Origin: Nitrospira sp.
GTDB lineage: Bacteria; Nitrospirota; Nitrospiria; Nitrospirales; Nitrospiraceae
Reading direction: 5' to 3'
DNA: 64,000 bases
Assembly (NCBI GenBank): GCA_022226935.1
Contig: CP092081.1
Coordinates: 1,633,332 to 1,697,331 of the forward strand
Below the pieces are notes generated by a model. That model did not search any database. It saw only the letters and a program-made list of their open reading frames with translations, and was not told the origin of the DNA. Position 1 is the first letter of the stretch; each line of letters starts with the position of its first letter. Of this stretch, positions 22,405 to 25,432 are shown piece after piece. Both the position numbers and the translations under genes were made by a program.

Positions 22405-22563
22405 TGTAGGCGACGGCTGGTTTCTCTCAAGAAGCTGGCCGCCGTCCAGTGCCCTCTCTGTAGCCTCTTTCCTTCTCTAAACCCCTCTCTGTTCGATCTC
22501 ATTTTCGTGCGGTCTCTCACCAGTCGTCATTGTTGCACCGGACCGGTGTTGCTAGAATGCCGC

Positions 22564-24879
22564 ATGCTCGACCCTCCCGTGCAGCAGTCCAGCGTGATGA
22601 TTCCGACGCCTTCTCCTGCGTATGTTGATGTGGTATTGCCACGCCGGCTTCATCGACCGTTTACCTATATCATCCCCGCTGAACTCAAGGGCCGCGTCGT
22701 CATCGGACGTTCGGTGGTTGTGCCGTTCGGCTCCCAAGACCTTCGCGGTCTCGTGATTGCGGTGTATCAGCGGCTTCCACCTGGTGCCCCGCAGGAGGGC
22801 CTCAAAGCTATTCGTTCGCTGAGTGCGGCGTCAGCGGATCACCTCCTCACGGCCGACCAAATCGGGCTCAGTCAGTGGGTTGCGGAACGGTATGCCGCAC
22901 CGTGGGGGCAATGTATCAAGCTCGTCCTGCCTCCTGTCGATCGAATGGGGCCGTCTCAGCCTCGATATGTGCTGACAGCGCAGGGCCTGGCAACGTACTC
23001 CTCCGTCGAGCCGTTGGGAGATACCGAAACAGAGTTGCTCGCCCGCTTACGCCGGCGTCCCAAAGGCATCATGGCGACGACTCTGCTGAAGGGAGACCAG
23101 GCCCGCACGACCCCTGCCTTACAGGCACTAGTCCAAAAGGGGCTGGTGGGTCGTTGCGATGAACCGGTCGCTCCCCGAATCCTTCGTCCCGCAAAGCAGG
23201 AGGGCCAACTATCAGGAGGCGGACTTCCTATGGAGTTGGTAGAGGCGACGAATGGTCTCGAACTGCCTCATCCAGAAGCCCTGCCGTGGCCGGCTGTTCT
23301 GGAACAGGCACTTGTGAAGAAGACCTCCGTCCCTTTGCTTCTGCAGGGGAATTACCGCACGAGACAGTGGTGCCTGGCCCAAGCGGTCCAAGCTACCGTT
23401 CGTCTCGGGAAGCAGGTGTTGATTCTCACGGGTGATGTCGAGCATGCGAGTCGGTTGGCTGGATTTCTGGCCGCAGGAAGCGAACGTGCGATGCTCCTGC
23501 ACAGCGGTCTTTCGATGAAGGCGCGGGCGGCGGTCTGGCAGGCGGCGCAAGAGGGTTCGGTCAAGATTCTAATCGGCACCCGCATGGCGGTCTTTGCTCC
23601 CCTGGAGCGGCTAGGTCTCGTGTGGGTGGACGGTGAGGATGATGCGTCCCTCAAAGAAGAGCAGGTGCCCCGGTATCATGCGCGAGAGGTGGCGCACTAT
23701 CGTGCTTCCCGTGACGGTGCGGTGTTGGTGTTGGCCTCGAACCATCCGTCTCTCGAGAGTCTGTCGGCGGTTCAGGAAGGACGCATGACGGCATGTGTGT
23801 ACCGTGATCCGGGGCAACTGCCGATGGTGCAAGTGATCGACATGAAAGACTCTCCCAGAGCCGCGTCAGGAGGCACGGTATTGTCGCCTCCTCTGATCGA
23901 AGGACTGCGTGACGCATTGCGGCAGAATGCCCTGGCGATGCTGTATCTCAATCGCAAAGGGTTTGCGAGTGTCCTGCATTGCGGAGATTGCGGGACGACG
24001 CCGCAGTGCGATGCCTGCAGTGTCGCGCTGACATTCTTTCGGCGCCGCAATCATGTCCGGTGCCATTACTGCGGCCGAACCAAGCCTGTGCCCGAACATT
24101 GTCCCCGCTGCCAATCGCTCAAGTTGGAACCGGTGGGGTCGGGTACGGAGCGTGTCGAAGAGGCCGTCCGACGGATGTTTCCCCAGGCGCGGGTGGGACG
24201 TGTAGATGGCGAAACGATTCGTCGTCCTGCCGATGCGCGGGCTTTGAATCGGCTGCTGGCAGCTGGGGACATTGATATCCTGATTGGGACACAGATGATA
24301 TTCCGCCTCGGTCTTCACGGGCGGGCATCGTTCGTCGCGCTGCCCGATGCGGATGCCGGTCTCCACGTTCCCGATTTCCGTTCTGCGGAACGGATGTATC
24401 ACGCCCTTCGGGACGCCGCCGATCTGGCTCGTCCTGCCTCTGCCGGAGGCCGGCTTCTTATCCAGACGCGCTTGGCAGACCATCATGCGATCATGGCCCT
24501 GGCTTCCGGTGACGAAGAGGTGTTCGTGCAGCAGGAGATGGCCTTCCGGCAGATGCTTCACTATCCACCCTGGACTTGCCTTGTTAGGCTGGATGTGTCC
24601 GGAACAAAGGAGGCAGTGGTGTCTCAGGCCGCCGATCGCTGGGCGGCGTTGCTGAAAGCGCAGGTTGCGGGTAGGGAACCGACGGTTGTGGTCTTGGGCC
24701 CATCTCCGGCGCCGCACGTTCTGACGCGAGGTCGGTACTGTTGGCAGATCCTGGTCAAATCCAGTTCTCCGAAGGCCGGGAAGGAGATCGCCGTGCGGAC
24801 ACGTGAGGAATTGGAGCGGGAATCCCGCCGGGGTGGGCTCCGATATGATATTGACGTCGATCCGGTCTCGATGGCGTGA
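22564..24879 (+). CDS. priA: PriA-like primosomal protein with degenerate helicase motifs
   Basis: This protein of about 771 residues is colinear with PriA. It has the N-terminal 3'-DNA-binding domain (YVDVVLPRRLHRPFTYIIP), a winged-helix part, the two helicase lobes, an intact Cys-rich zinc domain (CGDCGTTPQCDACS, CHYCG, CPRCQ), and the C-terminal domain ending in DIDVDPVSMA. The ATPase motifs are lost. Walker A reads LLQGNYRTRQW instead of GxTGSGKT, DEEH reads DGED, the SAT motif reads SNH, motif V reads GTQMIFRLGLHG, and the arginine-finger QVAGRAGR region reads DAADLARPA. It can probably bind forked DNA and load partners but not unwind. ATG 22564 is preferred; an upstream in-frame start exists at 22507. 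Confidence 0.85.
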   Translation: MLDPPVQQSSVMIPTPSPAYVDVVLPRRLHRPFTYIIPAELKGRVVIGRSVVVPFGSQDLRGLVIAVYQRLPPGAPQEGLKAIRSLSAASADHLLTADQIGLSQWVAERYAAPWGQCIKLVLPPVDRMGPSQPRYVLTAQGLATYSSVEPLGDTETELLARLRRRPKGIMATTLLKGDQARTTPALQALVQKGLVGRCDEPVAPRILRPAKQEGQLSGGGLPMELVEATNGLELPHPEALPWPAVLEQALVKKTSVPLLLQGNYRTRQWCLAQAVQATVRLGKQVLILTGDVEHASRLAGFLAAGSERAMLLHSGLSMKARAAVWQAAQEGSVKILIGTRMAVFAPLERLGLVWVDGEDDASLKEEQVPRYHAREVAHYRASRDGAVLVLASNHPSLESLSAVQEGRMTACVYRDPGQLPMVQVIDMKDSPRAASGGTVLSPPLIEGLRDALRQNALAMLYLNRKGFASVLHCGDCGTTPQCDACSVALTFFRRRNHVRCHYCGRTKPVPEHCPRCQSLKLEPVGSGTERVEEAVRRMFPQARVGRVDGETIRRPADARALNRLLAAGDIDILIGTQMIFRLGLHGRASFVALPDADAGLHVPDFRSAERMYHALRDAADLARPASAGGRLLIQTRLADHHAIMALASGDEEVFVQQEMAFRQMLHYPPWTCLVRLDVSGTKEAVVSQAADRWAALLKAQVAGREPTVVVLGPSPAPHVLTRGRYCWQILVKSSSPKAGKEIAVRTREELERESRRGGLRYDIDVDPVSMA

Positions 24880-24885
24880 GGCGAG

Positions 24886-25320
24886 TCAGTTTCGGGAGCG
24901 GTTTTTCTTGCCTCTCGGCGGGGCCGGTTTGCCTTCTCGAATCAAAACCGGTGGCGCGTTCTGTGCCCGCAGCCGTTTGAACAGACCAAGGGCAAACGTC
25001 ACCCAGAACACCGAGGTGAACAGGCCGAACAGCACAGCATTCAGAATCGTTCCCATCTGTTCTTCCGTCGGCTGAATTCCTTCCATCCGGATGCGCACCA
25101 TAGTCACAATCGGCCAGGTCATGCTTTCAATACCAAGCCCCAAGCTTGTCCAGGCCCATACGGCCCCGATGCTGCGCCCCCGCCAGAGAAGGAATGCGGT
25201 TGCTACAACGGCGACAAGCAGCGTCCAGACGAGCCCTGCTTGGTCCCACATGACAAAGATGCCGCCGGCGACCACCAGGCCGCCCAGGAGCGCGTTCAGT
25301 TGGGGAGTCCACCAGGTCAT
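24886..25320 (-). CDS. small integral membrane protein, unknown function
   Basis: This 144-residue protein has four predicted membrane helices (about 7-25, 27-45, 50-70 and 92-112) and a basic, Pro-rich cytosolic tail (PPRGKKNRSRN). The ATG at 25320 is preferred over a GTG two codons upstream. It converges on priA with six bases between stops. I recognise no family. Confidence 0.6.
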   Translation of the reverse strand: MTWWTPQLNALLGGLVVAGGIFVMWDQAGLVWTLLVAVVATAFLLWRGRSIGAVWAWTSLGLGIESMTWPIVTMVRIRMEGIQPTEEQMGTILNAVLFGLFTSVFWVTFALGLFKRLRAQNAPPVLIREGKPAPPRGKKNRSRN

Positions 25321-25432
25321 GATCACGGTCTCATTGACGGGTACAGGGAGACGAAAGCGGGCGTAGTGTGAGGATGGATCGGCTGGAAGTCAATGGAGCG
25401 CCATGCCGCGAAAATCGAGTAGGCGTGTTTCG

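Follow-up and report, generated by a model that had tools for sequence, protein, structure and literature searches.

A PriA without a helicase motor in Nitrospira: a probable pseudohelicase of a kind that arose repeatedly in Nitrospirota

The only PriA found in the Nitrospira genome studied here retains the domain architecture of its family and has lost most of the motifs of the helicase motor. We read it, with a probability of roughly three in four, as a PriA pseudohelicase that would recognise forks and help to reload the replicative helicase DnaB without ATP hydrolysis or unwinding. Three sets of data support this class assignment, namely the loss of catalytic motifs in an otherwise conserved PriA, the lack of a second, active PriA, and purifying selection on the gene.

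The gene lies in the window, the 64,000-nucleotide stretch of DNA that was analysed, and runs on the forward strand from an ATG at 22564 to a stop codon ending at 24879 (771 amino acids); the coordinates and the open frame reported in the initial annotation are correct. A GTG at 22507 would give a longer possible frame (22507–24879, +), and the ATG at 22564 is the likely start because the start of priA in a near relative (L051) corresponds to it. Unrelated genes flank it: upstream lie nuoABC-type genes and one of the OmpA family, downstream a two-component pair followed by a gene list entry for a HAD hydrolase. The protein scores 403 bits against the TIGR00595 model (cut-off 230) and matches the structures of Escherichia coli and Klebsiella PriA over its full length (E 1e-83). 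Its parts, and the reading frame that follows it, are as follows (window coordinates, strand, feature).

22627–22932, +, 3'-DNA-binding domain (3'BD); PF17764, 72.2 bits, cut-off 22.7
22933–23316, +, winged-helix/linker region, the part under loosest constraint (dN/dS about 0.3–0.5); position from the alignment
23347–23370, +, motif I (Walker A), dead; GNYRTRQW, the loop one residue shorter than TGSGKT and its Lys replaced by Arg
23425–23448, +, motif Ia, lost; LTGDVEHA replaces MVPEIGLT (PEI to GDV)
23575–23595, +, motif Ib, kept; GTRMAVF
23623–23643, +, motif II (Walker B), dead; VDGEDD replaces IDEEHD
23734–23757, +, motif III, lost; SNH replaces SAT (ASNHPS against GSATPA)
23941–23967, +, motif IV, kept; LYLNRKGFA
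23980–24111, +, cysteine-rich zinc module, 8/8 Cys; PF18319, 39.3 bits
24286–24321, +, motif V, half lost; GTQMIFRLGLHG against GTQMLAKGHHFP in E. coli, with GTQM kept and AKGHHF gone
24412–24438, +, motif VI (arginine fingers), dead; DAADLARPA replaces QVAGRAGR (LRDAADLARPASAGG against YTQVAGRAGRAGKQG in E. coli)
24568–24864, +, C-terminal domain (CTD); PF18074, 59.0 bits, cut-off 26.9
24886–25326, −, directly downstream of priA: a membrane-type protein of 146 amino acids without a Pfam match

All three Pfam domains exceed their cut-offs and occur in the expected order, and the eight zinc cysteines are invariant in every PriA set aligned (Nitrospirales, a second motor-dead clade described below, and intact proteins). 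The AlphaFold model (pLDDT 85.6, pTM 0.82) has the PriA fold throughout and superimposes on E. coli PriA in 8fak (8fak_H) with Z 34.5 and rmsd 2.6 over 629 residues. We rejected the idea that this best fit, to a fork- and PriB-bound structure, reveals a locked, restart-ready shape, since an intact Nitrospinota PriA used as a control behaves likewise (Z 35.9). Model score, domain order, zinc cysteines and predicted fold together indicate that the protein belongs to the PriA family by homology, and they bear out the earlier statement that the N-terminal domain, zinc module and C-terminal domain are intact. The same six-part architecture and predicted fold are seen in E. coli PriA (8fak, 6dcr) and Klebsiella PriA (4nl4), which, in contrast, are active 3'–5' helicases with all motifs intact.

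The motor motifs were read against E. coli PriA, whose sequence was rebuilt from its alignment to the window protein. Walker A lies in the context QGNYRTRQW, which replaces GVTGSGKTEV; DEEH has become DGED, with the Glu at the third position retained; and the arginine fingers are replaced by Leu and Pro. None of the signatures of an active SF2 helicase (Walker A GxGKT, Walker B DExH, SAT, arginine fingers) is left, and every class of residue needed for ATP hydrolysis is gone, from the shortened P-loop and its lysine to Walker B and the arginine fingers. The initial annotation had described all ATPase and helicase motifs as degraded. That holds for motifs I, Ia, II, III and VI and half of motif V, but motif V retains its GTQM, and motifs Ib and IV are kept. 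Each motif string that it quoted is present, in place of TGSGKT, DEEH, SAT, AKGHHF and QVAGRAGR, and the loss of motif Ia was missing from its list. The residues of E. coli PriA that contact PriB, T482 and H483, are not conserved in the window protein.

The search for a second priA that had been proposed earlier was run on the window genome (G000), a single contig of 4,229,538 bp (4.23 Mb) that is 99.4% complete. It holds one PriA only; no second copy was found with the TIGR00595 profile, and the other matches are weak, partial and belong to other helicases, for example RecG (C1:3050352–3052325) and Mfd (C1:2882036–2883184).

We ran TIGR00595 over 296 Nitrospirota genomes, 64 of which were searched again at E 1e-20 with unchanged results. 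PriA was detected at E 1e-40 or better in 279 genomes, always as a single copy save in one case split between contigs. The score by itself cannot separate dead from intact motors, and because the scores of the intact family f20 overlap those of the dead family f1, the motifs were read from the sequences of 139 PriA frames from Nitrospirota genomes and 80 named ones from GTDB genomes. GxGK[ST], DExH and the arginine-finger motif have all disappeared from the 52 Nitrospirales PriAs (families f1–f3 and seven named Nitrospira or Nitrospirales genomes), and the frame is open in every Nitrospirales copy examined. PriA of the sister family in the same class, f8, is likewise motor-dead. A second motor-dead clade comprises 13 families (f15, f21, f23, f25–f31, f33, f35 and f38). 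In family f37, one protein (G203, L109) keeps Walker A and B and has a ruined motif VI, and the other (G280, L111) lacks Walker A together with half of motif VI; the pair is possibly a snapshot of PriA decay. Motors are intact in six other families of the class that contains Nitrospirales (f4–f7, f9 and f10) and in the remaining sampled Nitrospirota families. Outside the phylum, 73 of 73 PriAs are intact as well, in a sample whose make-up was biased by the search patterns. Recurrence of the losses in 52/52 Nitrospirales PriAs, as against 0/47 intact Nitrospirota and 0/73 other-phylum proteins, rules out a sequencing artefact or chance.

The replacements differ between the two clades. At the Walker lysine position Arg stands in 42/52 Nitrospirales PriAs and Glu in 32/42 proteins of the second dead clade, compared to Lys in 47/47 intact Nitrospirota proteins. 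Among the Nitrospirales, the first arginine finger is Leu in 49/52, the Glu at the third position of DEEH is retained in 50/52, and His in place of the Thr of SAT is a conserved replacement. The other clade resembles Nitrospirales in its loss of motor motifs, its zinc cysteines and its one copy per genome, and it differs in its separate origin, in the frequent retention of the EH of DEEH and in mostly keeping a full-length PcrA.

To place the losses, we used an rpoB tree of 67 Nitrospirota genomes and three outgroups. The window genus is represented there by another genome (G141) because rpoB was not found in the window genome; neither it nor G198 yielded a TIGR02013 candidate, both genomes being nearly complete and perhaps missing a stretch. 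Full motor loss falls on two branches. One is the stem that unites Nitrospirales with f8, supported at 80/61 by rpoB and at 99/96 by PriA; the other is the stem of a crown clade of 22 motor-dead genomes (100/99), which is nested among the intact families f22, f32, f34, f36 and f39. The alternative that every motor-dead Nitrospirota PriA goes back to one loss was rejected on rpoB (lnL 556 lower, p-AU 1.5e-43). A PriA tree from which most motif columns were left out gives the same picture: there the crown clade groups with its own intact relatives, and Nitrospirales with f8. Replacement of PriA by a transferred foreign pseudohelicase is not supported, as the sample contains no motor-dead PriA from outside and the crown clade nests with intact relatives. 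The rpoB tree needs at least two full losses and one partial loss, family f37 being the probable third case. The motor loss seen in the window encompasses a whole order and its sister family and is far older than the window genome. The comparison of PriA across Nitrospirota suggested earlier for dating the loss has placed it on these two stems, and the claim that the loss is independent of those in other phyla is supported and extends to at least two losses within Nitrospirota.

Within the window genus, dN/dS for the whole of priA is about 0.14–0.21 (pairs with dS 0.2–1.2), with 0.33 in the single closest pair. Most pairs give about 0.15–0.21 for lobe 1 and 0.05–0.18 for lobe 2 with the zinc module; the 3'BD gives 0.08–0.16 against the nearest congeners, and the winged-helix region is the loosest part at 0.2–0.6. 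The gene is under purifying selection, helicase lobes included, and is not a pseudogene; the dead lobes are constrained, since their ratios resemble those of the rest of the gene. This bears on one alternative, that the protein is a degrading remnant heading for loss in lineages where restart has become independent of PriA. Its fast evolution, with long branches in the PriA tree, would fit such decay, as would a stop codon in frame that separates the 3'BD from lobe 1 in the f37 genome G280, possibly a sequencing fault or a pseudogene, and the lack of any PriA match at E 1e-20 in two well-filled members of the window-genome family (G105 and G257, 99% and 94% complete). Those two absences may be assembly gaps or true losses. 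Selection across the entire frame, the open frames and invariant zinc cysteines throughout the order, and the order-wide motif loss, which means that the gene has long outlived its motor, all argue against a remnant, and we consider it unlikely.

A motor-dead PriA has been an established kind since Deinococcus radiodurans, and the Nitrospira protein joins that kind. D. radiodurans PriA, the best-tested precedent and one not named in the initial annotation, has no ATPase and does not unwind DNA, binds single-stranded DNA, binds forks with near-normal affinity and contacts DnaB, in an organism without clear priB or dnaT; the survey in the same paper presents Deinococcus-Thermus as the exception (PMC4504706). 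The two proteins share a preserved PriA architecture, an Arg in place of the Walker A Lys and a poor Walker B. They belong to different phyla, and while that account stresses motifs I and II (PMC4504706), the window protein goes beyond it in the loss of motifs Ia, III, VI and half of V and in a P-loop one residue shorter. We found no report in the open-access literature of a motor-dead PriA, or of its recurrence within one phylum, for Nitrospirota. The new elements are the phylum, the age of the loss, the fact that it arose more than once among lineages with intact motors, and the larger set of motifs lost. The window protein reaches 456 bits with general PriA models and no more than 175 bits, a far worse fit, with the NCBIfam PRK14873 models, which we take to be models of actinobacterial PriA. 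The actinobacterial proteins (Rv1402 type) are similar in being divergent PriAs of lineages without priB, priC and dnaC. They are smaller and very divergent (PMC1193525), which is as far as the literature consulted goes towards the lack of helicase motifs that the initial annotation ascribes to them, and that of Mycobacterium tuberculosis is essential and has been described as a helicase loader (PMC5694481).

The altered sequence, the single copy, the selection and the depth and recurrence of the loss are shown directly; we infer the absence of ATPase activity, the binding of forks, the loading of DnaB and the identity of any substitute helicase. Abandoned forks and D-loops would be recognised through the 3'BD, the dead helicase lobes, the zinc module and the CTD, and the protein would act as a platform for reloading DnaB with DciA, both of which are present in the window genome. 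ATP hydrolysis and unwinding of the lagging strand would have been given up; opening would be unnecessary at forks with a single-stranded lagging arm, or alternatively the lagging strand may be opened by another helicase, such as RecG or the remaining UvrD-type enzyme, encoded at C1:64951–66840 of the window genome. Retained fork binding and helicase loading fit the conservation of the DNA-binding, zinc and C-terminal parts and the selection on the gene. In E. coli, K230R alone abolishes the ATPase of PriA (PMC4504706), K230A still supports DnaB loading in vitro (PMC10175261), and the motor-dead allele priA300 is tolerated given priB and leans on rep (PMC9713433). By analogy with the E. coli and D. 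radiodurans precedents, Nitrospira PriA should recognise forks and recruit DnaB. Some points count against this: Nitrospirales lack a full-length PcrA/UvrD, although the E. coli motor-dead allele leans on rep, and the loss of the PriB-contact residues would weigh in the same direction.

Of the helpers suggested earlier, RecG is present in the window genome. PriC has no match over its cut-off anywhere in Nitrospirota. DnaB loading in the precedents from E. coli involves PriB and DnaT, and in Nitrospirota it would have to use other partners. A gained helper was rejected as the cause of motor loss, since DciA (69/71 genomes) and RecG (most genomes) occur irrespective of PriA state; RecG is a candidate fork opener and not a correlate of the loss. 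We did not find RecG in G023, G192 (f22), G062, G134 (f27) and G093, where the sole match is Mfd-like; in f27 and G093 the PriA motor is missing along with RecG. One genome of the window genome's order, assembled as a single contig, has a recG that appears to be split into two frames with an internal stop (G251:C1:1762921–1764643).

The absence of a PriC match in Nitrospirota, together with the fact that only the DNA-binding and structural parts are demonstrably retained, would suit a DNA-binding scaffold whose task is not to reload the replisome but, for example, to regulate RecG, recombination or SSB. Such a role seems quite improbable: the CTD and the zinc module, which in E. coli recruits partners for DnaB loading (PMC10175261), are fully conserved, and priA is single-copy and present in nearly all genomes of the order. 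That the motor is alive, binding and using ATP through an unusual pocket of the conserved Nitrospirales replacements (Arg, His and the retained Glu), is very improbable given the shortened P-loop, the Leu/Pro in place of arginine fingers, the lost Asp-Glu of Walker B, the lethality of K230R alone to the E. coli activity and the different replacements in the second dead clade, which would be expected from lost constraint and not from new chemistry.

Full-length PcrA/UvrD, scored as a TIGR01073 match reaching position 724 in the window genome and 70 other Nitrospirota genomes, is missing from 14/14 Nitrospirales tested and from f8, f37 and f13; every other family of the class has it, as do most members of the crown clade. 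Genomes without it still have a second UvrD-type helicase of about 690 amino acids and one of RecB/AddA size. Two of the three PriA-loss branches are also PcrA-loss branches, a suggestive co-loss in which three independent pairs cannot reach significance; we leave it as a lead, because three pairs are too few and the dependence on rep in E. coli (PMC9713433) predicts the opposite. A bolder form of the pseudohelicase reading, which we offer only tentatively and regard as doubtful, is that the motor-free PriA is a pure recognition platform, with DnaB–DciA itself or RecG opening the fork and no dedicated 3'–5' fork helicase, and that restart was repeatedly rebuilt in this manner in Nitrospirota, two lineages also losing full-length PcrA/UvrD.

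In Nitrospira, whose members are major nitrifiers in the environment, the label 'replication restart helicase' that the standard model attaches to these proteins is probably wrong as to enzyme activity. The conservation of the PriA motor motifs almost everywhere has been read as a sign that unwinding confers a selective advantage, yet E. coli can do without the motor. A phylum in which the motor was lost completely at least twice, independently and long ago, beside close relatives that kept theirs and one family apparently in mid-decay, offers a natural experiment on the purpose of the motor and on what can replace it.
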